This document shows, one piece after another, positions 23,347 to 37,000 of a DNA stretch of 64,000 bases. The notes below the pieces were generated by a model. The model saw only the letters and a program-made list of their open reading frames with translations, ran no database searches and had not been told where the DNA came from. The stretch is from Chloroflexota bacterium (GTDB lineage: Bacteria; Chloroflexota; Anaerolineae; Anaerolineales; UBA4823), in NCBI GenBank assembly GCA_029265355.1, contig JAJUJL010000020.1:1-64000 (forward strand). The letters are read 5' to 3'. The translations under genes were made by a program, and so were the position numbers. Every line of letters begins with the position of its first letter. Positions within the stretch are counted from its first letter, which is position 1.

Positions 23347-24255
23347 GTGCGCGGCCTGATCATTCGCTCCCAGTCCGGATTTTATACCGTCGAAACCAGC
23401 CAGGGCAATCGCGTCTGTCGCCTGCGCGGGCGCTTGAAAAAAGGACCGCGCCAGGGAGACGTGGCAGCCATTGGCGATTGGGTGCAAATCACGCCCGAAG
23501 GCCAGTCGCGCGGCATGATCGAGGCGGTCGAGCCGCGCCGCCACGTGATTTCGCGCATGGCGCCCACCCCGCGCGGCGAATACGAGCAAATCTTAATCGC
23601 TAACCCCGACCAGGCTGTTTTTGTGTTTGCCTGCGCCGAACCTGAGCCGCGCTTTGGTATGTTGGACCGTTTCCTGGTGATCGCTGAACGGCAACACCTG
23701 CCAGCGTTGATCGTCGCCAATAAAGCCGACCTGGTGGGTATGGCGAAAGCCGAGGCCTGTTTCCAGCGCTATGCGGATATCGGTTATCCCGTGCTGGTCA
23801 CCTCGGCAAGCCTGGGTTGGGGGTTGGAGGCGTTGGGCGAGCGACTGGCTGGGAAAATCTCTGCCCTGACTGGCCCATCTGGCGTGGGGAAATCCAGCTT
23901 GTTGAACCGAATTATTCCCGGCCTGGACTTGGAGGCGCGGGAGGTGAGCCAGGCGACCAGCAAAGGAAGGCATACGACCGTAGTGCGCGAGCTGCACCGC
24001 CTGCCGCAAGGGGGGTATGTCGCCGATACGCCCGGCCTGAAAGCCCTGGCTTTGTGGGACATCAACCCTGAAGAGCTGGACGCCTATTTTCCTGAGCTGC
24101 GCCAACGGGTGGCGCAGTGCGAATTCAGCGACTGCAGCCACCAGCACGAGCCGGGCTGCGCAGTGCTCAAGGCGCTGCAGGCAGGCGAAATTCACCCGGA
24201 ACGCTATCAGTCTTACCTGCGCATCCGGCTGGGTGAAAAAGAGCTGGCTGGTTAA
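23347..24255 (+). CDS. rsgA: Ribosome small subunit-dependent GTPase A
   Basis: RsgA is a circularly permuted GTPase that helps 30S subunit maturation. Its order here is normal for the family: OB-fold (about 1-65), G4 motif NKADL (about 120), G1 loop GPSGVGKSS (near 178) and DTPGL (G3). The C-terminal zinc-binding segment has the Cys/His cluster (CEFSDCSHQHEPGC). It has 302 residues and a GTG start. Its stop lies 25 bases before the next gene, an ABC ATPase. Confidence 0.94.
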   Translation: MRGLIIRSQSGFYTVETSQGNRVCRLRGRLKKGPRQGDVAAIGDWVQITPEGQSRGMIEAVEPRRHVISRMAPTPRGEYEQILIANPDQAVFVFACAEPEPRFGMLDRFLVIAERQHLPALIVANKADLVGMAKAEACFQRYADIGYPVLVTSASLGWGLEALGERLAGKISALTGPSGVGKSSLLNRIIPGLDLEAREVSQATSKGRHTTVVRELHRLPQGGYVADTPGLKALALWDINPEELDAYFPELRQRVAQCEFSDCSHQHEPGCAVLKALQAGEIHPERYQSYLRIRLGEKELAG

Positions 24256-24280
24256 CCGACATTACCCGTCAGCGCGAGCG

Positions 24281-25255
24281 ATGGTCACCGCCGAGAACCT
24301 TGCCCCTGTTCTGCAAGTCGATCGATTGAGCTATTATATCCCCTTGTGGCGCGGCTACCTGGTGCGGCAGCCGGCCGGTGCGCTGCGCATTTTGGATAGC
24401 ACCAGCTTTGAGCTTTATTCGGGCGAGATGCTGGTGCTGGTGGGCGAGTCTGGCAGCGGCAAATCCAGCCTGGCGAAAACGATCCTGCACCTGGCATCGC
24501 CAGGATTTGGGCGGGTTATGTACCGCGGGCAGGACCTGGCTCAGTTGCGGGGGGAATCGCTGCGCGCTGTGCGGCGCAAATTGCAGCTCGTATTTCAAGA
24601 CGCGCGCGCTGCGCTGAATCCGATCATGCCAGCCAGAGAGGTCCTGGCAGAGGCCCTGGCGCCTGGCGAACGGATAAGGCCAAATGAGCGAATATTGGAG
24701 CTGGCGGAGCTGGTTGAATTTTCACCGGCGCTGCTTTCCTGCACTCCCGGAGCGCTGAGCGATGAACAATGCCGGCGGCTGGGATTGGCGCGCGCCCTGG
24801 CGGCTGAGCCCGAAGTGATTGTCTATGATGCGCCAGTACGACCTGACGCAGACCAGGCGGGGTTGGGTATGCTGCGCTTGCTAAGAAGCCTTCAGAGCAG
24901 TCTTTCCTTGAGTTGTCTGTTCCTCGACCGCTCTCCCAGCCCGGCTTACCGGTACGCCGACCGCGTCGGGGTGATGTATGCGGGCAGGCTGATCGAGCTG
25001 GCGCCGCAAGAAGAACTCTCAAGACATCCCTTGCACCCTTACAGCCAGGCGCTGTTGGCAGCCACGCCAGGTATACGCGGGCTGCCGGGTGACAAGGTAT
25101 TGCGCCTGCCGGGCGAATCGCCCAGGCCGGGCAACCTGCCGGGCGGCTGCCGCTTTCACCCCCGCTGCCGCTATGTCCAACCGGTATGCCTGGAAGCCGA
25201 CGCTGAATGGCGCCAGGCGTCGCCGGGGCATTGGGTAGCCTGTCACATGGTATGA
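24281..25255 (+). CDS. Oligopeptide-type ABC ATPase with degenerate catalytic motifs
   Basis: The 324-residue protein has the general shape of OppF/DppF: Walker A GESGSGKSS, a Q-loop (VFQD) and the C-terminal extension [17 protein letters not shown]. However, the signature is ALSDEQCRRLGLARALA instead of LSGGQ, and Walker B is VIVYDAPV, with Ala where the catalytic Glu should be. The switch His is also lost (FLDRSPS where the intact in-window OppF has FIAHNLS). The D-loop is changed too. It therefore probably binds ATP but hydrolyses it poorly, if at all. No second ATPase is encoded beside it. It overlaps the following permease by ATGA. Confidence 0.85.
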   Translation: MVTAENLAPVLQVDRLSYYIPLWRGYLVRQPAGALRILDSTSFELYSGEMLVLVGESGSGKSSLAKTILHLASPGFGRVMYRGQDLAQLRGESLRAVRRKLQLVFQDARAALNPIMPAREVLAEALAPGERIRPNERILELAELVEFSPALLSCTPGALSDEQCRRLGLARALAAEPEVIVYDAPVRPDADQAGLGMLRLLRSLQSSLSLSCLFLDRSPSPAYRYADRVGVMYAGRLIELAPQEELSRHPLHPYSQALLAATPGIRGLPGDKVLRLPGESPRPGNLPGGCRFHPRCRYVQPVCLEADAEWRQASPGHWVACHMV

Positions 25256-26082
25256 GCGCCTTTATTTTTCGCAGGGCGGTGTGGCTGCTGCCCATCATGC
25301 TGGTGGTCGTGCCCAGCGCTTGCCTGCTGTTGCAGGTATCTCCCTCTACGCTGTGTGATGGACGTGGGCTGGTTTTACCTGCCAGTCATTCCCTGTTTGC
25401 TGCGCCTGAAAATGGCTCGGGCTGGCAAAGCCCGGTGGGAAACTCTATCCGCCTGATGCTGGTGGGGGCGGCGCTGGGGCTGGGTCTGGGTTTCCCCATG
25501 GGTTTGCTGGCGGCCCTCGGGCGGGGGAATTGGCTGGACAAATCCATTCAAGCGCTGTGCAGCCTGTTCATTTCCCTGCCAGGGTTGGTGTTGGCGGGGT
25601 TGGTGCTGGGTGTTATGGCCTGGATGGGGAAAGCAGGCGCAACGCCGGATTGGGAAAAGCCGGCTGCCTGGCTGGCGCCCGCGCTGGTCACCGGCAGCGG
25701 GTTGCTGGGTTTTACCGCCCGGATTGTGAATGAGGCGCTGCTGCAGGCGCTGGGCCAGGATTATGCGCTTGCCGCCAGGGCGAAGGGTTTGACAGAACGG
25801 GAGATGGTCATCCGCCACCTGCTCAGAAATACCTGGATTACGGTGACCAACAGGTTGACGCCAGCTCTGACCAGTCTGGTGCTTGGCTCTTGGCTGGTAG
25901 AGGCGGTGTTTGGCTATCCGGGCATGGGGCGGCTGTTCGTGCAGGCGATTTTACAGGGCGAGCGTGAACTGGTCTGGAGCGGTGTGATCATCTATGCCTT
26001 CCTGGCAGCACTGGCCGGCCTGGTAGCGGATGTCCTGGCCGCCGCGCTCGAACCGCGCTTGCGAGAGGAGCGGCAGCGATGA
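25252..26082 (+). CDS. ABC transporter permease, DppB/OppB-like, short form
   Basis: An inner-membrane permease of 276 residues with about six helices. The EAA loop that contacts the ATPase is recognisable (EALLQALGQDYALAARAKGL...RHLL), and the C-terminal FGYPGMGRLF...ALEPRLR block is typical of the DppB family. It is shorter than usual (about 305-330), mostly for lack of the extracytoplasmic segment after the first helix. It starts at an ATGA overlap with the ATPase and ends in an ATGA overlap with the second permease, so the three form one unit. Confidence 0.85.
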   Translation: MSAFIFRRAVWLLPIMLVVVPSACLLLQVSPSTLCDGRGLVLPASHSLFAAPENGSGWQSPVGNSIRLMLVGAALGLGLGFPMGLLAALGRGNWLDKSIQALCSLFISLPGLVLAGLVLGVMAWMGKAGATPDWEKPAAWLAPALVTGSGLLGFTARIVNEALLQALGQDYALAARAKGLTEREMVIRHLLRNTWITVTNRLTPALTSLVLGSWLVEAVFGYPGMGRLFVQAILQGERELVWSGVIIYAFLAALAGLVADVLAAALEPRLREERQR

Positions 26083-27026
26083 GTGCTACGCCGGCGCTGG
26101 CGCGCCCACCAGCCGGCTCGAGCGAGCCTGGCGGATGTTCCACGACGAGCTTCGGGCGGCAGATGTGGGCGCGCCTGGTCACGCGCCAGGCGTTTTGGTT
26201 GGCGCTGCTGGTGTTGGTGGGGTTCGTGTGCCTGGCGTTGCTGGCGCCGTGGCTTACTCCCCGCCAGGAGCCGGCGCAGGCAGGTGGGCAGAGCAAAGGC
26301 GCATTTGTCGCCAGCGCCGGCGATGCGTGGATGAGGGTAGCAGGTCGCGCCATCTACGCCGCCCGGGTATCGGTCTTGTTCAACCTGTTCGCGGCAGGCA
26401 GCGCGCTGCTGCTGGGCGCTGCGTTGGGTATATTAGCAGGCTGGCATGGCGGCCGGGCAGACACCGTCCTGGCGCGCCTGCTGGAGCTGGTGGAGGCCTT
26501 CCCAGATTTGCTGCTCCTGGTTACGATCATGGCTGCCTGGCGAATGATGGCAGTGGGCAAATCTGCCGGCGGCCTGGTGTATTTATTCCTGGCCCTTGCA
26601 CTGGTGTACAGCGTGAACGCAGCTCGCCTGGCGCGCGCCTGCACCCTTGAAATCAAGGAATCAGCCTTTGTGCTGGCGGCGCGCAATCTTGGTCTGAGCG
26701 ATGGGCGTATTTTTCGTCGCCATGTGCTGCCGGTGACACTGGCGCGTTTGCTGCCTGCGGTGGCTTTCCAAATACAGGCGGTTGTGATCGCCGAAACTGC
26801 GCTCAGCTACCTGGGCCTGGGTTTGAAGCCAGGCGCATCAACCCTGAATTATTTCTTCACCAGTTGGGGAGCAATGCTGTTTGAAGGGCAGCTCGTCGTG
26901 ATGGAACAGCCTCTGGCTCTGCTGGTTCCGGCGACCTGCCTGGCGCTGTTGCTGCTGGCGCTGGCGGCGCTGGGGGTTGGGTTGCAGAAATCGATTCAGG
27001 GCGGCTCAACCACTCGAACCCCTTGA
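26079..27026 (+). CDS. ABC transporter permease, DppC/OppC-like, lacking the GTDxxGRD motif
   Basis: A 315-residue permease with about six helices and a clear EAA loop (ESAFVLAARNLGLSDGRIFRRHVLP). The C-terminal ETALSYLGLGLKP...WGAML is also typical. The DppC hallmark (H-LGTDxxGRDxxSR, present in the intact paralog at 33865 as YLGTDNIGRDYFSR) is replaced by AFVASAGDAWMRVAGR. It partners the upstream short permease. Motif loss in both this protein and the ATPase suggests the transporter has diverged as a set. Confidence 0.85.
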   Translation: MSATPALARPPAGSSEPGGCSTTSFGRQMWARLVTRQAFWLALLVLVGFVCLALLAPWLTPRQEPAQAGGQSKGAFVASAGDAWMRVAGRAIYAARVSVLFNLFAAGSALLLGAALGILAGWHGGRADTVLARLLELVEAFPDLLLLVTIMAAWRMMAVGKSAGGLVYLFLALALVYSVNAARLARACTLEIKESAFVLAARNLGLSDGRIFRRHVLPVTLARLLPAVAFQIQAVVIAETALSYLGLGLKPGASTLNYFFTSWGAMLFEGQLVVMEQPLALLVPATCLALLLLALAALGVGLQKSIQGGSTTRTP

Positions 27027-27103: not shown

Positions 27104-27685
27104 ATGAGCGCAGTGAGTGATCAAGAGTTGGTTACGCAGCTTCAGCAGGGCAGTCTGGAGGCGCTGGGGGCGTTGTACGATCGCCACCAGCGACTGGTGT
27201 TCCGCACCGCGCTGGCCATCACCGGCGATGGGCAAGCTGCGGATGATCTGCTGCAAGACGTGTTTTTACGCTTGCACCGTTTTGCCGCCAACATCGACCC
27301 GCTGCGCCCCCTGGAGCCCTGGCTTTACCGCATGACGGCAAATTTATCCTATGATTGGGTGAAGCGCCGCAACCGCTGGCCGCAGCCCATCGAGGACCTG
27401 GCAGATTGGTTCTCGGGAGCGGGCCGCAACCTGCCGGATGAGACGATCGAGCAATTGGATGAGTGGGCGCTGGTGCAGCGGGCCGTTTCCAGCCTGCCAT
27501 TGAGCCAGCGTGTGGTGGTGGTGCTATATTACCTGAACGACCTCTCGTTGCAGGAAATTGCTGAGATCCTGCAAGTGCCGGTCGGGACGGTGAAATCGCG
27601 CTTGCACTATGGACGCATCGCCTTGAAACACAAGCTCGGGTTTTACGAGGAAAGTGTGCCGGATTGGAATTATGACAAATCGTAA
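27104..27685 (+). CDS. ECF-type RNA polymerase sigma factor
   Basis: A group 4 sigma-70 factor of 193 residues with regions 2 and 4 only. Region 2 has LYDRHQRLVFRTAL and LLQDVFLRLHRF...PWLYRMTANLSYDWVKRR. Region 4 has SLPLSQRVVVVLYYLNDLSLQEIAEIL and VGTVKSRLHYGRIALK, the helix-turn-helix that reads the -35 element. Such factors answer envelope or stress signals. The next gene overlaps its 3' end by 14 bases and encodes a short putative membrane protein, the position in which an anti-sigma factor is often found. Confidence 0.92.
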   Translation: MSAVSDQELVTQLQQGSLEALGALYDRHQRLVFRTALAITGDGQAADDLLQDVFLRLHRFAANIDPLRPLEPWLYRMTANLSYDWVKRRNRWPQPIEDLADWFSGAGRNLPDETIEQLDEWALVQRAVSSLPLSQRVVVVLYYLNDLSLQEIAEILQVPVGTVKSRLHYGRIALKHKLGFYEESVPDWNYDKS

Positions 27686-28067: not shown

Positions 28068-30014
28068 ATGAATCTGCCTTTACGAACAAGTTACTTGAGG
28101 ATCGGCCTGGGCTGCCTGGCGCTCTTGATGGGGCTGTTGGTCGGGTGCCGCCCGCAGCCTTCTCCGCAGCCGGAACAACCGCCGACGGAATCTCCCACGT
28201 TGCCCGCCCCCACGGCGACGCCCACGCCAGAACCAGAACCGAGCTTGCTGACGGTGTGCCTGGGGCAGGAACCATCGCCATTTCTCTACCTGGATCACAG
28301 CAGCGCGGCCCGCGCCGTGCGTCAGGCGATCTATGATGGCCCCACCGATCGCATTGGCTATGTGCTACAGCCCGTCATTTTGCAGGAGATCCCCAGCCTG
28401 GCGAATGGGGCAGCGCGCCTGGAACCTATACCGGTGGGCGTGGGCGATGTGATCGTGGATGCCAATGGAGAGCTGGCGGCGCTGGATGTTGGCGTGCGCT
28501 ACCGGCCTGCGGGTTGCCTGGAAGATGCTTGCGCTCAGGTGTATGCCGGTGAGCAGGGCGTGCAGCTAGATCAATTGACGGTGCGTTTTCAACTGCGTGA
28601 AGGTCTTTCCTGGTCGGACGGGCAGCCGCTGACTGCCAGCGATTCGGTTTTTGCCTATCGCCTGGCGCAGGAGTGGTTCCCACGTTTGCAAGCCGACCTG
28701 CTGCGGCGGACCATATCTTACAATGCGCTCGATGTGTACACGATCGAGTGGAAGGGACTCCCCGGCTACCTGGAGCCGCAGTACCAGACGATTTTCTTTT
28801 CGCCGTTGCCCGAGCATGTGCTGGCAAGCATCCCAGCGGCAGAGCTGGCGACCGCTGCCACGCTCCAACAGGCCACACTCGGTTGGGGGCCGTATGTCGT
28901 GCAGGATTGGATTGCCGGCGACCATATCACGCTGAGCCGCAATCCTCGCTACTGGCGTGCGGCGCAGGGCTTGCCGGCATTCGAGACCCTGGTTTTTCGT
29001 TTTGTGGACAGCCCACAATCGGCGCTGGAGGCGTTGCTTGCCGGTGAATGCGACATCGTGGATGAGTCGGCCAACCTGGACAGCAGCCTGTCGGAGGTGC
29101 TGCGCCTGCGCGACGCTGGCCAGCTCCAGGCCGCCATCAGCCCGCGCGGTGGCTGGGAGCAGGCGCTGGTGGGAATTGCCCCGGCAGACCCGGCGCGGCC
29201 GGCGCTGTTTGCTTCCCGAGAGATGCGCCAGGCGTTAGCGCTGTGCATGGATCGCCAACGCATCGTGTCCGAGGTGCTGCTCGGGCAGACGACCGTGATG
29301 AACAGCTATGTGACCCCAGGACACGCATTAGAAAATCCGGAGGTGGCTGTTTACGGGTTTGATCCCCAGGGCGGGGCGGCGCTGTTGGAAGCTGCCGGCT
29401 GGAGCGACGCCGACAACGATCCGGCCACACTGCGCCTCAGCCGCTCGGTTACTGGCCTGGCGGATGGCAGCGAGCTGCGGGTGAGGTTGCTGGTTGCGCA
29501 AGATGACGAACGTGAACGAGCGGCGGCGATCGTCGCTGAATCGCTGGCTGGATGTGGCATGGCGGTCGATCTGCAGGTGATTCCCGGCGCAGAGCTGCTG
29601 GCGCCTGGTCCCCAGGGGGTCGTCTTTGGGCGGAATTTCGACCTGGCGCTGTTTGGCTGGGCGCAGAGCGTGGAGCCGCCTTGCGGGTTGTACCTGTCTG
29701 CTCAAATTCCTGGCCCTGAGCAAAACGCCTCCATGGGGTGGGGCGGCGCCAACGCCGGCGGTTACCAGAGCGAGGCTTTCGATCAAGCCTGCCGACAGGC
29801 GCGCTTGAACCTGGCAGATGCGCCAGCTTACCTGCAGGGGCAGCGCGCGGCGCAGGCGGTGTTTGCCCAGGATTTGCCGGCCATCCCCTTGTACACACGG
29901 CTGCGAGTGACAGCCGCTCGAGCGGGGGTGTGCAATTTGCAAGTGGACGCCTCAACAACTGCGCCGCTGTGGAACCTGGAAGATATTTTTGTGAGCCAGC
30001 GCTGTGATGAATAA
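28068..30014 (+). CDS. ABC transporter solute-binding lipoprotein, family 5 (oligopeptide-type), canonical domain order
   Basis: A lipoprotein of about 648 residues; the signal peptide ends in LLVGC with lipidated Cys27, then a Pro/Thr/Glu-rich linker. The mature protein follows the normal family-5 order: TVCLGQEPSPF (about 60), LTVRFQLREGLSWSDGQPLT (about 170), GWGPYVVQDWIAGD (about 272), AGECDIVDE (about 324), MRQALALCMDR (about 386), VYGFDPQGGAALLEAAGW (about 428) and LPAIPLYTRLRV (about 603). It probably supplies ligand to the degenerate transporter at 24.3-27.0 kb. The ATG at 28068 is preferred to a TTG two codons upstream. Confidence 0.87.
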   Translation: MNLPLRTSYLRIGLGCLALLMGLLVGCRPQPSPQPEQPPTESPTLPAPTATPTPEPEPSLLTVCLGQEPSPFLYLDHSSAARAVRQAIYDGPTDRIGYVLQPVILQEIPSLANGAARLEPIPVGVGDVIVDANGELAALDVGVRYRPAGCLEDACAQVYAGEQGVQLDQLTVRFQLREGLSWSDGQPLTASDSVFAYRLAQEWFPRLQADLLRRTISYNALDVYTIEWKGLPGYLEPQYQTIFFSPLPEHVLASIPAAELATAATLQQATLGWGPYVVQDWIAGDHITLSRNPRYWRAAQGLPAFETLVFRFVDSPQSALEALLAGECDIVDESANLDSSLSEVLRLRDAGQLQAAISPRGGWEQALVGIAPADPARPALFASREMRQALALCMDRQRIVSEVLLGQTTVMNSYVTPGHALENPEVAVYGFDPQGGAALLEAAGWSDADNDPATLRLSRSVTGLADGSELRVRLLVAQDDERERAAAIVAESLAGCGMAVDLQVIPGAELLAPGPQGVVFGRNFDLALFGWAQSVEPPCGLYLSAQIPGPEQNASMGWGGANAGGYQSEAFDQACRQARLNLADAPAYLQGQRAAQAVFAQDLPAIPLYTRLRVTAARAGVCNLQVDASTTAPLWNLEDIFVSQRCDE

Positions 30015-30100: not shown

Positions 30101-30381
30101 TGATTTGCATGACATACCCGAATGCAATTTGCTCAAAGGTTTTGGTTTGAACCAAAAGTCCTTTCCAGTCGTATCCTATATTGGAATGCTGCATATCTAT
30201 AGGTCAAGAGTTAAGAGCAGATCCTATTCGTGGCTCGATCCAAAGAATAGGTTGTGTAACCTATGGAAGGAGGTGGTTACGAGCGCAGGAATTGGCATGT
30301 TTTGTGTTTAATGGCTTGCAGTTGAAGAAAGCCACCGCATCTCAGTACGTCAGAAAAACATTGCAAGGAGGAGAATTACCC
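30101..30381 (+). other. Long, structured 5' leader of the Opp operon
   Basis: No gene is evident. Short inverted repeats are visible: TTTTGGTT/AACCAAAA (about 30138-30158), CCTATTC/GAATAGG (about 30223-30252) and GTAACC/GGTTAC flanking a strong AAGGAGGT (about 30257-30281) that has no well-placed start codon. The true ribosome binding site, AAGGAGGAG, is at about 30365. The leader may be regulatory, but no known riboswitch class was recognised. Confidence 0.35.
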
Positions 30382-32325
30382 ATGAATACTCGTTCACGAA
30401 TTTTGGCAGTGCTCAGCCTGGTGCTGGTTGCAGCCTTTGTGTTGAGCGCCTGCCAGCCGGTCACCACCACTGTCGAGGTTGTCAAGACCGTGGAAGTGCC
30501 GGTTGAGAAGCAAGTGGAAGTCGTCAAGACCCAAGAAGTGACCGTGGTCGAGACCCAGGTGGTTGAAGTGGAGAAAGAGCCGTTCACCACGCCGCACCCG
30601 ATCCTGGGCGACCTGCGTGTCCGCCAGGCAATTGCCCACTGCACCAATAAGCTCGAGCTGGTGCAATCTGTGTACCCGCTGATCTCGCCCGAAGAGCAGG
30701 CTAACCTGGTGATGAACACCTTCATCCCGCGCAGCTCCTGGGCTTACGCCGGCGATGAAAACGTGACCATCTACGAGTTCGATCCCGAGAAGGGCAAGGC
30801 TCTGCTGGAGGAAGCTGGCTGGACCCTGCCCGAAGGCGCAGATTTCCGCACCAATGCCAACGGCGAGGAGCTCTCGCTGAAATTCACCACCACTTCTGCT
30901 GCATTCCGCCAGACCTGGGCGGCTGTGTTCGAGCAGCAGATGGCTACCTGCGGCATCCGCATCGTGCGGCTGCACGCCCCGGCCTCCTGGTGGTTCGGCG
31001 ATACGACCGGCCTGGCGCGCCGCGACTTCGAACTGGGCGCTTTCGCCTGGGTTGGCCAGGCAGATCCCGGCGGCGAGACGCTGTGGGCTTGCGACCAAAT
31101 CCCCCTGCCCTCCAATGGCTGGGCGGGCCAGAACTACATGGGCTGGTGCAATGAAAAGGCCAGCGTGGGTATCAAGAACGCCAACAACACCCTGGTCAAG
31201 GAAGAGCGCATCAAGTGGTACCGCGATGTGCAGCAGGCTTACACTGAAGATGTGCCAGCCATCCCGCTCTTCAACCGCACCGAGACCTTCTCGACTCGCG
31301 CCGACCTGACTGGCTTCGCCCCTACCCCGGGTGAAGAGTACTATGTGTACAACATTGGCGAGTGGGAAGTGCCCGGCTCTGACACCATCGTGATTGGCTT
31401 CACTCAGGAACCGGCTTCACTGTACAGCTTTGTCGAGAGCGCCTTCGTGTCGGCTCTGCCGAACATGATCATTGGCAACCAGCGCGGCTACACCACGCTC
31501 AACTATGACTTCCAGGCTACCTACCTGAAGCAAATGCCCACCATCGAGAACGGTGGCGCAGTCAACAACGATGTCGAGGTCAAAGAAGGCGACAAAGTGG
31601 TTGACAGCGGCGGCAACATCGTCGACCTGGCGGCCGGCGTCAAGGTGAAGAATGCGGCGGGCGAGGAAGTCGAGTTCACCGGCGGCACCGTCACCATGAA
31701 GCAACTGGTCATCACCTTCGAGTACCTGGACACGCTCAAGTGGCCGGATGGCTCCCCAGTGACCCAGGAAGACATCGAGCTGTGGGTGAAGGTGCAGTGC
31801 GACCGCGAATCCGGCGCCACCTCCTTCATCCTCTGCGACAAGACGGCTGGCTGGACGTTCGATGGCCTGAAAGCCACTCGCACGCTGCTGCCCGGTGCAC
31901 AGGATCCCCTGTACTTCACCTATGAGCCTGGCTTTGCACCCGCCAACCGCGTGTTGTCCGACGGGCGCCTGCTGAAGGATGTGCCCGCCAAGGATTGGCC
32001 GACCCTGCCGGAAGTTGCTGAATCTCCGTGGGGCGTAGGCCCGTACATGGTCAAGGAATGGGTCAAGGGCGAGAAGCTGGTCTTCGAGGCTCATCCCTAC
32101 TGGTACGGCGGCACTCCCAAGACGCCCAATATCGTGATCGCGTTCGTTACTCCTGAAAACGCCGAAGCGCAACTGCTCGGTGGGCAGGTGGACGTGTTGG
32201 GCTCTGAAACCCTGGCTGGCCTGACCCAGACCCTGGTGGATGCCGAAACTGCAGGTGATGTGATCAACTATGTTATCCCCGGCGCGACCTGGGAGCACAT
32301 TGACTTTGCGCTGTTCGTGAAGTAA
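30382..32325 (+). CDS. ABC solute-binding lipoprotein, family 5, with circularly permuted halves
   Basis: A lipoprotein of 647 residues with signal peptide and lipidated Cys24 (LSAC), then a Val/Glu-rich linker (about 28-66). Its landmarks occur in the reverse half order compared with the neighbour at 28068. First come C-half motifs: RVRQAIAHCTNK (about 80), IYEFDPEKGKALLEEAGW (about 130), FELGAFAWV (about 216) and VPAIPLFNRTETFS (about 291). Then come N-half motifs: DTIVIGFTQEPASLY (about 334), LKWPDGSPVTQEDIELW (about 452), WGVGPYMVKEWVKGE (about 550) and LLGGQVDVLGSE (about 598). It ends at WEHIDFALFVK, which normally leads into RVRQAI. The total length matches the unpermuted relative. AAGGAGGAG precedes the ATG. 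It is the binding protein of the Opp operon downstream. Confidence 0.9.
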   Translation: MNTRSRILAVLSLVLVAAFVLSACQPVTTTVEVVKTVEVPVEKQVEVVKTQEVTVVETQVVEVEKEPFTTPHPILGDLRVRQAIAHCTNKLELVQSVYPLISPEEQANLVMNTFIPRSSWAYAGDENVTIYEFDPEKGKALLEEAGWTLPEGADFRTNANGEELSLKFTTTSAAFRQTWAAVFEQQMATCGIRIVRLHAPASWWFGDTTGLARRDFELGAFAWVGQADPGGETLWACDQIPLPSNGWAGQNYMGWCNEKASVGIKNANNTLVKEERIKWYRDVQQAYTEDVPAIPLFNRTETFSTRADLTGFAPTPGEEYYVYNIGEWEVPGSDTIVIGFTQEPASLYSFVESAFVSALPNMIIGNQRGYTTLNYDFQATYLKQMPTIENGGAVNNDVEVKEGDKVVDSGGNIVDLAAGVKVKNAAGEEVEFTGGTVTMKQLVITFEYLDTLKWPDGSPVTQEDIELWVKVQCDRESGATSFILCDKTAGWTFDGLKATRTLLPGAQDPLYFTYEPGFAPANRVLSDGRLLKDVPAKDWPTLPEVAESPWGVGPYMVKEWVKGEKLVFEAHPYWYGGTPKTPNIVIAFVTPENAEAQLLGGQVDVLGSETLAGLTQTLVDAETAGDVINYVIPGATWEHIDFALFVK

Positions 32326-32647: not shown

Positions 32648-33847
32648 ATGACGGGATATCTCATTCGCCGGTTGATTCAAATGGTTGCAGTCGTGTTCAT
32701 CTCGGCTGCGGCTACCTATGCGCTGCTGAACTTTGCGCCGGGCGGCCCGATGTCTGGCCTGCGCCAGATCCAGCAGTCCGCCACCTTCCGCATCACCGAA
32801 GAAGATATCGAGCGCATTCGCGCCTATTTTGAGCTGGACCTGTACCTGCCGGTGCGCTTCTCGCGCTGGTTGATCGGCCAGCCGCGCGGCCGCCTGATCA
32901 TCGGGGATTATGAGTACTTCTCCAATGTGCCCATCGGCTGCAGCAAACCCATCGAGCAGACTTTCGAGCTGGAGAACGGCACCTTTGAAACGCGCACGGT
33001 GGGTTGCGAGAGGTACGTTTACCTGATCGACCTGGAGGGCCGGCGGAGCAGCAGAGGCGTGCTGCTCGGCGACTTTGGCGCTTCCTGGCGCTTGAACCGC
33101 GACCGCCCGGTTTCCGATTTGATCATCAGCCGCCTGCCCAAGACGCTGCAGTTGATGGGGTTATCCATCCTGGTTTCATTGTTACTGGGGGTGCCATTGG
33201 GCATCATCTCGGCGGTGAAGCAATATTCAAAATTTGATTATTTTGTCACCACGCTGGCCTTCTTTGGCTCATCGATGCCCACCTTCTTCTTTGGGCTGCT
33301 GATGATCTTGTCGTTCTCCATCATCCCTAAGGGCCTGGGCTGGTTCTACCTGCCCCCTGGCAGCTCGGAGGCGGTGCGCAACTACCTGGTGCCGGGGTTG
33401 GGCAACGTGGAAGCCGGCTCGACGCTGGACCGCTTCCTGCACCTGCTGATGCCGGCGGCGGTGCTGGCGATGGTGTCGGTGGCTGGCTGGAGCCGCTACG
33501 TGCGCGCCAGCATGCTGGATGTGCTGCGCCAGGACTACGTGCGCACGGCGCGCGCCAAGGGTCTGATCGAGCGCGTGGTGATTATCAAGCACGCCCTGCG
33601 CAACGCGCTGATCCCCTTCGTGACCATCGCGGTGTTCACCATCCCGGCTTTGTTCGGCGGGGCGATCATCACCGAGTCGATTTTCTCCTGGCCAGGCATG
33701 GGGCGCCTGTACATCCTGGCCTTGGGCGATTATGACTACCCGGTGGCAATGGCGCTCTTGCTGATCACCGCGGTGCTGACGGTGTTTGCCACCCTGCTGC
33801 AGGATGTGCTGTACACCATCGTCGACCCGCGCATTCGCTTCAGTTAA
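32648..33847 (+). CDS. Oligopeptide ABC transporter permease OppB/DppB-like
   Basis: A 399-residue permease starting MTGYLIRRLIQMVAVVFIS, the standard DppB N terminus. The EAA loop (DVLRQDYVRTARAKGLIERVVIIKHALRNAL) and FSWPGMGRLYILALGDYDYPV...VDPRIRFS are canonical. It is about 70 residues longer than usual. The extra extracytoplasmic region between helices 1 and 2 holds two cysteines in IGCSKPIEQTFELENG...TVGCERYVY, possibly a disulfide. This insert may be adapted to the unusual binding protein encoded before it. Confidence 0.92.
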   Translation: MTGYLIRRLIQMVAVVFISAAATYALLNFAPGGPMSGLRQIQQSATFRITEEDIERIRAYFELDLYLPVRFSRWLIGQPRGRLIIGDYEYFSNVPIGCSKPIEQTFELENGTFETRTVGCERYVYLIDLEGRRSSRGVLLGDFGASWRLNRDRPVSDLIISRLPKTLQLMGLSILVSLLLGVPLGIISAVKQYSKFDYFVTTLAFFGSSMPTFFFGLLMILSFSIIPKGLGWFYLPPGSSEAVRNYLVPGLGNVEAGSTLDRFLHLLMPAAVLAMVSVAGWSRYVRASMLDVLRQDYVRTARAKGLIERVVIIKHALRNALIPFVTIAVFTIPALFGGAIITESIFSWPGMGRLYILALGDYDYPVAMALLLITAVLTVFATLLQDVLYTIVDPRIRFS

Positions 33848-33864: not shown

Positions 33865-34866
33865 ATGGCTAGTACTACTGCACCCGTTGAACTGCTGGCT
33901 GGCGACGCCATCACCACGCCGGAGGAAAAGCCCTGGCAGGTCATCCTGCGCCGTTTCAAAAAGCACCGCCTGGCGGTGGTTTCCACGGTTGTGATGGCGA
34001 TTATTTTCCTGGTTTCGATCTTTGCTCAGCAAATTGCGCCTTTCGAGCCAGAAGAGCTGACCGTGGGGAACTATTTCTTGCCTGCTGGCAGCGTGCAAGA
34101 AAGCACCGGGCGGGTGCACTACCTGGGCACAGATAATATCGGCCGTGATTATTTTTCACGCCTGATCTACGCCGGACGAATTTCGCTGACCGTTGCGGTG
34201 ACTTCGGTGATCGTCTCAACCCTGATTGGCGTGGCGGTGGGTGCCTATTCTGGCTACTATGGCGGCTGGGTGGATTCGCTCTTGATGCGCTTTGTTGAGT
34301 TCATGCTGACCATCCCATTTTTGCCGCTGCTGTTGATCCTGTCCTCGATGCTGCTGCGCAATGAAAACCTGATCCCCATACCGGAACCGGTTTTACGCGT
34401 GGCTGGGCAGATCATGCTGCTCAGCACCCGCGATGCGCGCCAGGCGGTGGTGATCATCATTGTGCTGGCTGGCACGGGCTGGTTGACTTCAGCCCGCCTG
34501 ATGCGCGGTATGGTGCTCTCGCTGCGCGGCCAGACTTTTGCCGAGGCTGCCCAGGCGCTGGGCGCTTCTAACGCCCGCATCATCTTCACACACATGATCC
34601 CCAATGCCATGGCGCCGATCATCGTGGAGGCTACGCTGGCCCTGGCTGGCTATATCATTGCCGAGGCCGCGCTGTCCTTCCTGGGCTTTGGCATCCAGGA
34701 CCCGGTGCCAACCTGGGGCAATATGCTCGCGGCCACGCAAGGTTTCATGTTCGATCGTCCCTGGTTGCCGCTCATCCCGGGTTTCCCGATTTTCCTGTGC
34801 TCGCTGGCTTTCAACTTCATTGGCGATGGCCTGCGCGACGCGCTGGATCCGCGCTTGAAGATGTAA
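33865..34866 (+). CDS. Oligopeptide ABC transporter permease OppC/DppC-like
   Basis: A 333-residue permease with the OppC_N segment (about 25-70) and the hallmark YLGTDNIGRDYFSRLIYAGRISL. The EAA loop (TFAEAAQALGASNARIIFTHMIPNAMAPI) and AEAALSFLGFGIQDPVPTWGNML follow. Between helices there is an extra stretch (LLRNENLIPIPEPVLRVAGQIM) not usual in short family members. It pairs with OppB to form the channel and sits 17 bases downstream of it. Confidence 0.93.
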   Translation: MASTTAPVELLAGDAITTPEEKPWQVILRRFKKHRLAVVSTVVMAIIFLVSIFAQQIAPFEPEELTVGNYFLPAGSVQESTGRVHYLGTDNIGRDYFSRLIYAGRISLTVAVTSVIVSTLIGVAVGAYSGYYGGWVDSLLMRFVEFMLTIPFLPLLLILSSMLLRNENLIPIPEPVLRVAGQIMLLSTRDARQAVVIIIVLAGTGWLTSARLMRGMVLSLRGQTFAEAAQALGASNARIIFTHMIPNAMAPIIVEATLALAGYIIAEAALSFLGFGIQDPVPTWGNMLAATQGFMFDRPWLPLIPGFPIFLCSLAFNFIGDGLRDALDPRLKM

Positions 34867-34925
34867 TTGATTTTACACGGCGTACTCGCCGGATAAACCG
34901 ATGCAATTATTTTGAGAGGTACTCC

Positions 34926-35975
34926 TTGACACAACCTGCGACCAAAAACAAACCATTGCTGGAAGTCAAAAACCTCAAGACCTACTTCTTCACCGAAGAT
35001 GGCGTGGTGAAGGCGGTGGACGGGGTGGATTTCACCGTGGGGCATGGCGAAGTGCTCGGCCTGGTGGGAGAATCCGGCTGCGGCAAGAGCGTGACCTCGC
35101 TCTCGATCATGCGCCTGATCAGCGTGCCGGGCAAAGTGGTGGAAGGCGAAATCTATTTCGATGGCGTCAACCTGCTGGAGCTGCCAGAATCCGAGATGGT
35201 GCACATGCGCGGCAACCGCATGTCGATGATCTTCCAGCAGCCGCAGTCCAGCTTGAACCCAGTCTTCAAAGTCGGTGACCAGGTGGCAGAAGTGCTGCAG
35301 ATCCATCAGAAGATGCCCAAGCAGCAGGCCTGGGAAAAGGCGGTCGAACTGCTCAAGCTGGTGGGCATACCGGATGCCGAGAACAAGGCGCATGCTTTTC
35401 CCCATGAAATGTCTGGCGGCCAGGCGCAGCGCGTCATGATCGCCATGGCGCTGGCGCTCAACCCACAGCTCTTGATTGCCGATGAGCCGACGACGGCGCT
35501 GGATGTGACCATCCAGGCGCAGATCCTGGACTTGATGCGCGGCTTGCGCTCTACGATGAACACGGCCGTGATCCTGATCACGCATGACCTGGGCGTGATT
35601 GCCGAGATGGCAGACCGGGTTGCGGTGATGTACGCCGGGCGGATTGTTGAGCAGTCGCCGGTGCGGACGCTGTTCGAGCAACCGCTGCACCCTTACACCC
35701 AAGGCTTGATTGCTTCCATCCCAATTCTCGGCGTGGTGAAAGACGAACTGGAGGTGATTCCCGGCTCGGTGCCAAACCTGATCAATCTGCCGCCGGGATG
35801 CCAGTTTGCGCCGCGCTGCCGCGCGCGCCTGGAGCACAACCTGGAGATCTGCACCTCGGTCGAGCCGGAGTTGCAAATGGTTACCTCGGACCACAAAGTG
35901 CGCTGCTGGTTATATCATAGCCTGCCGGACAAGGGCCACCAGGCGCCGCTTGCTCAGTTAGTCCAGGTTTCGTGA
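34926..35975 (+). CDS. Oligopeptide ABC transporter ATPase OppD/DppD-like
   Basis: A 349-residue ATPase with intact motifs: Walker [10 protein letters not shown]-loop [10 protein letters not shown], signature [15 protein letters not shown], Walker [13 protein letters not shown] and switch His in LITHDLGV. The C-terminal OppD extension includes [21 protein letters not shown], a likely Fe-S or structural cysteine cluster. The start is TTG at 34926 ([16 protein letters not shown]), with GAGAGG upstream; reading further upstream only re-enters the permease gene in another frame. It is the hydrolysing partner of the next gene. Confidence 0.92.
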
Positions 35976-35983
35976 GGTATACG

Positions 35984-37000
35984 ATGAGCTATCAAATGGC
36001 AACAAAAACAAAGGACCGCGATGGAAAAAGCGGTGAATGGGACCTGGTGCAGGTAAAGAACCTGGTGAAATATTTTCCGGTGCGCGGCGGTGTCTTGCAG
36101 AAGGTCATCGCCAATGTGCAGGCGGTGGATAACGTCAGCTTCACCATCCGGGAAGGTGAGACAGTTGGCCTGGTGGGCGAATCGGGCTGCGGGAAAACCA
36201 CGGTTGGGCGGACGATGCTGCGTTTGATCGAAGCCACCTCTGGAGAGGTGCTGTTCAACGGTGTGGATGTTTTGAAGCTGCGCGGCCGCGAGCTGAAGCA
36301 GATGCGGCGCAATATGCAGATCATCTTTCAAGACCCATACGCATCGTTGGACCCACGCACACCGATCGGCGAATCGGTGGCTGAAGGGCTGCACATTCAC
36401 AATGTGGGCAACCCCAAAGAGCGCTATGGGGTGGTGATCGAAATGCTGCGCAAGGTGGGGCTGGAGGAATACCATGCCCGCCGCTACCCGCACGAGTTTT
36501 CTGGCGGGCAGCGCCAACGCATTGGCATCGCCCGCGCCCTGGCCTTGCGCCCGAAGTTCATCATCGCCGATGAGCCTGTCTCGGCGCTGGATGTGTCGAT
36601 CCAGTCGCAGGTGCTGAATATTTTGCGCGAGCTGCAACGTGAGTTCGGGTTGACCTACCTGTTTATCGCCCACAACCTGAGCGTGGTTGAGCACATTTCG
36701 GACCGCGTGGCGGTGATGTACCTGGGCAAAATCGTAGAGTTCGCAAACCGAGATGAGCTTTTCCGCAACCCGCTGCACCCTTACACGCAGGCGTTGATGT
36801 CGGCGATCCCGATTCCAGATCCGACTTTGAAGCGCGAGCGCATCATCCTGCAAGGCGACGTGCCCAGCCCATTGAATCCGCCCAAGGGATGCCGCTTCCA
36901 CCCGCGCTGCCCGGTGGCGATGGATCATTGCTCAGTGCAAGAACCGCCGTATATTGAAGTCAGCAAGGACCATTTTGTGGCATGCTGGCTGGTGCAGTAG
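35984..37000 (+). CDS. Oligopeptide ABC transporter ATPase OppF/DppF-like
   Basis: A 338-residue ATPase with Walker [21 protein letters not shown], signature [15 protein letters not shown], Walker [13 protein letters not shown] and switch His in LFIAHNLSV. The C-terminal [17 protein letters not shown] cluster is present. It heterodimerises with the preceding ATPase. The ATG at 35984 has GAGG seven bases upstream; a GTG at 35972 overlapping the previous stop is an alternative start. It is the last gene of the operon; a terminator follows at 37139. Confidence 0.93.

Follow-up and report, generated by a model that had tools for sequence, protein, structure and literature searches.

The window, by which we mean the whole 64,000-nucleotide stretch of DNA that was analysed, contains on its forward strand at 30382–32325 a single open frame of 647 amino acids whose translation, Pfam and BLAST matches and structural model mark it as a family-5 solute-binding lipoprotein with permuted halves. 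The parts of this gene, the importer genes behind it and the canonical gene in front of it all lie on the same strand. A Shine-Dalgarno-like sequence read directly from the DNA, AAGGAGGAG, spans 30365–30373 and ends 8 bases 5' of the ATG at 30382. The signal peptide (30382–30453) ends in the lipobox LSA-C24, and A23 and C24 are at least 90% conserved when 59 permuted proteins are aligned, which agrees with the first-pass annotation of an intact signal peptide and lipobox; the invariant residues of this alignment are spread along the chain. A linker rich in Val, Glu, Lys and Thr follows (residues 25–67, 30454–30582), most of which is disordered in the AlphaFold2 model, with residues 23–62 at pLDDT below 50. 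Next comes the half that is C-terminal in canonical relatives (residues 68–330, 30583–31371, assigned by structural match to 2d5w and by BLAST), and after it the canonical N-terminal half (residues 333–647, 31378–32322, assigned by its fold when predicted alone and by matches to 1xoc and 2d5w). The join between the old C terminus and the old N terminus, which had been claimed to lie near residue 333, is put by the alignments and by the spacing from W328 to the QEP motif at residues 328–336 (31363–31389). The chain closes with a strand at residues 627–642 (32260–32307) that we read, from the full model, as a hinge strand.

A canonical-order family-5 binding lipoprotein, identified by sequence, Pfam and BLAST, is encoded directly upstream at 28068–30014. 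At 648 amino acids it is of nearly equal length to the permuted protein, as had been noted, and the gap between the two genes is 367 bases instead of the roughly 400 first given. Downstream of the permuted gene lie permease B (BPD_transp_1, its extracellular loop in the scoop region being long and containing two cysteines; 32648–33847), permease C (OppC_N and BPD_transp_1; 33865–34866), ATPase D (ABC_tran and oligo_HPY; 34896–35975, start provisional) and ATPase F (ABC_tran and oligo_HPY; 35972–37000). Two permeases and two oligo_HPY ATPases thus stand in one operon with the binding protein, the Opp/Dpp-type BCDF arrangement, and the permuted gene is at its head, as originally proposed. A second, diverged ABC importer set lies directly upstream at 24041–27026, and its identity to the corresponding proteins of the permuted operon is 36% for the ATPase and about 28% for the permeases; the set is possibly the partner of the canonical protein encoded at 28068. 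An ECF-type sigma factor gene (27104–27685) sits between permease genes and the canonical gene.

The proposed order, C-half before N-half, was recovered by BLAST, by Pfam and by sequence comparison with the PDB. In BLAST, residues 80–312 of the permuted protein match residues 386–624 of the upstream canonical protein (28% identity, E = 6e-22) and residues 331–639 match its residues 56–365 (26% identity, E = 1e-21); because the two blocks are cross-matched, the order of the halves is reversed. Family membership is clear from the SBP_bac_5 profile (PF00496; E = 4.9e-37, 128.3 bits against a curated cut-off of 32.4), and the match is split into two stretches, the better of which aligns protein residues 52–235 with profile positions 190–358, while the upstream canonical protein gives a single stretch over profile positions 14–356. 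Since Pfam reports only a split match, such a half order is easily overlooked. Among solved structures, residues 322–582 of 2d5w align with residues 75–330 of the query and 2d5w residues 211–311 with query residues 553–645, and solved family-5 chains were matched through one half or the other both with the single sequence and with a profile of the 59 permuted proteins. The N-to-C half order canonical for SBP_bac_5 is not found, which makes this a permuted variant, and with both halves homologous to canonical halves, their order swapped and the old termini joined, it has the features of a circular permutant.

An AlphaFold2 model computed from 59 permuted sequences and no templates has a mean pLDDT of 88.5 and a pTM of 0.80. 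Residues 68–338 of this model align with 2d5w residues 311–593 with a Z-score of 25.1 over 260 residues and an rmsd of 3.3 (VIA-align), and the best Foldseek row, order-dependent and so spanning one half, covers 256 columns with a TM-score of 0.31. Folded alone, the N-half reached a pTM of 0.86, and its best matches begin at residue 21 in 1xoc (Z 20.6) and at residue 5 in 2d5w (Z 20.4). The latter alignment ran past the expected border to residue 363 of 2d5w, presumably because the loose tail of the solo model was being fitted. The family-5 fold of both lobes is in this way predicted, with Z-scores of 20–25 for the halves against 2d5w and 1xoc; the first-pass annotation had made its reading depend on such a fold, and both halves are confident and match the same canonical chains, in comparisons that follow sequence order. 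The full model has a confident strand of 16 residues at 627–642; in the solo N-half model this strand is absent and residues 635–647 have pLDDT below 50. In the models, therefore, the C-terminal strand is formed only with both halves present, as expected of a hinge strand between two lobes.

The positions of the breaks were compared in a set of 116 permuted ORFs, in which, because the collections overlap, the window ORF appears three times and some genomes appear twice. The EHxD motif was found in 115 of these ORFs, and in 112 of those the chain ends 6 residues past it. The old C-terminal tryptophan (W328 here) stands 12–15 residues N-terminal of the QEP motif in 114 of 116, and 108 have a lipobox-like motif ahead of the C-half; several of the eight ORFs lacking it start at a contig end or a frame break. 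On this evidence from the sequences, the old termini are fused with almost no linker and the breakpoints are nearly fixed. In the canonical relatives at loci L107, L109 and L111 the halves come N then C and the loop from the WEHxD strand to the VRQA helix is intact (L107, which ends at the contig end, reads WEHLDFNLNVPSATNKDKQNLSEPHFALGDVRVRQA in this region), so the permutation cut falls within that loop. The earlier placement of the break in one loop stands, but the new C-terminal strand, which had been set before the hinge strand, is, as we read it, itself that strand, and the cut comes in the loop after it. If the domain names of OppA/DppA are applied here, domain III comes first and the I-II-I lobe second, and the old termini meet in domain I. 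With the chain opened where domains I and III adjoin, in the loop behind the first hinge strand, each lobe would then be contiguous. Judging by the models and by the OppA/DppA domain borders, a single covalent crossover would be left instead of two, the second hinge strand would rejoin non-covalently as the new C terminus, and the lipid anchor with its flexible linker would lead into the C-lobe, on its hinge side, and not into the N-lobe.

The same half order occurs far more generally than could be seen when a search for it elsewhere was first proposed. A second permuted copy in the same genome is 39% identical. Near-full-length colinear matches were found in 19 of 101 related genomes, the window's own included, plus one partial match at a contig edge. 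In a genome_contigs scan with one genome per species, the best 80 matches corresponded to 78 loci, which carry at least 65 permuted ORFs with both halves above 200 bits and nearly identical breakpoints. Among these best 80 matches the permuted loci are titled Chloroflexota save two, L058 (Singulisphaera) and L104 (Gracilibacteria). Those two proteins share 96% and 75% identity with permuted proteins from the window's phylum, so they are not taken as spread beyond Chloroflexota and are probably mislabelled or misbinned. The matches listed include Anaerolineales, Caldilineaceae, Thermoflexales, Roseiflexaceae, Chloroflexaceae and Oscillochloris, and among named strains Bellilinea caldifistulae GOMI-1 and Candidatus Chloroploca asiatica B7-9. 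Of 400 genomes drawn evenly from the phylum, again with the window's own, 43 carry the permuted gene, part of them in the window's class and the remainder in families f36 and f72 outside it; five are single-contig genomes with an intact gene (G048, G219, G235, G267 and G432). The gene lies in two frames in G334 (C1:2870419–2872342) and G358 (C70:4550–6515) and has an internal stop in G444; in G334, also a single-contig genome, the two frames correspond to profile positions 3–443 and 444–645. A search of 299 genomes from the phylum to which G107, the genome with the Neoroseomonas locus L114, belongs gave one match passing E = 1e-40, which covers the C-half only and lies in a canonical-order frame; four candidates per genome were scored in the rows listed. 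Of 528 matching plasmid records none has one place covering 80%, and two of the 15 plasmid matches listed, from different genera, were checked and are of canonical order. The search of viral contigs returned no relative.

The trees were built from 42 permuted and 47 canonical rows, selected by thinning from 114 and 67, which gives 89 rows for the N-half and, with L107 and two repeats of L108 added, 92 for the C-half. The 42 permuted rows form one clade in each, with SH-aLRT support of 99 (C-half) and 100 (N-half), and in careful trees built from 30 rows, including 12 permuted ones, the clade has 100/100 for each half. Because the permuted proteins fall into one clade for each half, a single permutation event is enough. 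The upstream canonical gene at 28068–30014, considered as a direct parent, was set aside since both half trees place it in a different canonical clade. L107, L109 and L111 have the best-scoring canonical C-halves in the set, and L109 and L111 join the permuted clade in the careful C-half tree (94/87, not starred). It is possible, though we think it unlikely, that the protein is a chimaera whose C-half and N-half come from different neighbouring canonical paralogues, brought together by a deletion across a tandem pair. Tandem canonical pairs and canonical–permuted pairs do exist, and the C-half groups with L107, L109 and L111 (SH-aLRT 99) while the N-half tree sets L111 among other canonical proteins (82). 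The N-half data, however, do not reject a clade of the permuted proteins with L109 and L111 (p-AU 0.21), and a concatenated tree of 84 rows again gives the permuted clade, with canonical L111 and then L109 nearest to it, the supports of these forks being unprinted. Most simply, the permuted proteins would descend from a single event in an L109-like parent.

As to the route, a canonical protein heads the closely related operons L180 and L181 and tandem canonical pairs occur (L179), which makes duplication and fusion plausible: the gene would have been duplicated in place, the C-half of the first copy fused to the N-half of the second, and the outer halves lost. No N-C-N or C-N-C intermediate was found among 198 loci, the sole odd pattern being a tandem C-C protein. 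In this protein, encoded by a frame of 769 residues in an Anaerolineae MAG (L108:5248–7554), a permuted-type C-half occurs twice in tandem, a WEHID(F/L)NL strand comes after each copy, and no N-half is recognisable; the C-half tree groups both C-lobes within the permuted clade.

Permease genes B and C are the next recognised same-strand genes in 55 of 67 permuted loci; among loci with 3 kb or more of downstream sequence, the figure is 51 of 54. By this test L074, L076 and L082 have no BC genes, and each of these assemblies has, by title, another permuted locus. Compared with its closest relative, L011, the permuted gene has a dN of 0.19 and a dS of 0.85 (NG86; dN/dS about 0.22), values that indicate purifying selection. 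Operon context and purifying selection together lead us to take the permuted protein as a working component, most likely the binding lipoprotein of its BCDF importer, in which it would bind an oligopeptide-class substrate between its two lobes and pass it on to BCDF, in the manner of other cluster-C proteins. That the protein no longer takes part in transport, being a structural or sensory lipoprotein that stands beside the operon, is improbable. This reading would fit the second copy of the same genome (G000:C35:21949–23892; L002, L197), for which no B, C, D or F relatives were found in the 18 kb examined, and the three loci without downstream BC, and the canonical binding protein that adjoins the operon in 18 of 67 permuted loci could do the transport work there. 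Against it, 34 of the 51 BC-followed loci show no canonical protein beside the operon, contig ends permitting, the low dN/dS and the invariant residues along the chain speak for a constrained protein, and in L180 and L181 the same first place is taken by a canonical binding protein. Some permuted copies may nevertheless do something other than serve BCDF transport. An artefact of assembly or annotation, whether a pair of half genes or a wrongly joined contig, has practically no probability left: nothing but the odd half order speaks for it, and the single open frame with its own ribosome-binding sequence and the same arrangement in at least 65 named loci and the five single-contig genomes exclude the assembly error that had been raised as a concern. 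The product of 30382–32325 is, in our judgement, very probably a naturally circularly permuted family-5 lipoprotein belonging to a conserved Chloroflexota family, probably of single origin.

In E. coli, a scoop motif of DppB between TM1 and helix 3 binds the cleft between the lobes of DppA, whose peptide-contact residues are R383 and D436 (PMC12136057). The corresponding loops of the B proteins directly behind permuted genes are 102–119 residues long (211 in one case) and contain two cysteines by eye, against 50–86 residues in the 11 further B proteins that were listed for these loci. A long scoop loop as the signature of a permuted partner was dropped, since the canonical-headed L180 and L181 have long loops too, by eye longer still. 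On the earlier suggestion that the permutation could alter peptide entry into the cleft or docking on the permease, the one observation bearing on it is this loop length, which is not peculiar to permuted proteins. Very large insertions between TM1 and the next helix are seen in the B proteins at L054:2245–3795 (211 residues measured) and, similarly large by eye, at L180:3425–4969 and L181:10206–11735.

Family-5 binding proteins are among the commonest and best-studied transport proteins, and here a very common protein design has been rewired by nature. Their two-lobed fold is a model case of evolution by duplication and segment swapping, and a conserved natural permutant opens a test of whether the hinge needs two covalent crossovers and of whether the site of the lipid anchor bears on docking. 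Segment swapping has been held necessary for hinge motion in this fold (PMC9815098). We regard it as an evenly balanced proposition that a family with a single crossover and a hinge-side anchor makes the double-crossover hallmark dispensable and that its docking geometry or opening mode may differ. Permuted proteins may hide in other families too, and native termini at the hinge could suit sensor design. Among the matches listed from open-licence papers (PMC9815098, PMC10601554 and PMC12136057 among them) there was no natural permuted family-5 binding protein, the permuted proteins met there being engineered ones and biosensors; the terms tried are absent from the main text of a Chloroflexus proteome paper (PMC9316378).

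The nearest solved protein by sequence and fold is 2d5w from Thermus thermophilus, with AppA of Bacillus subtilis (1xoc) also close. The permuted protein shares with cluster-C SBP_bac_5 proteins both halves, the lobe folds, lipoprotein-type export and a place at the head of an Opp/Dpp-type operon, and differs from them in the order of the halves. From the models and the canonical topology, it would also differ in having its termini at the hinge, whereas the canonical ones are in the N-lobe, and one covalent crossover where canonical proteins have two. Two precedents come from other binding-protein classes, the engineered permuted halves of the Thermotoga ribose-binding protein (PMC9815098) and the domain dislocation between type I and type II PBPs (Fukami-Kobayashi 1999, as cited in PMC9815098); they have in common with the present case a two-lobed fold rearranged around the crossover. 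The Thermotoga constructs, however, are single lobes made in the laboratory, and the dislocation exchanged elements between lobes, whereas the protein described here is a natural one, permuted as a whole.
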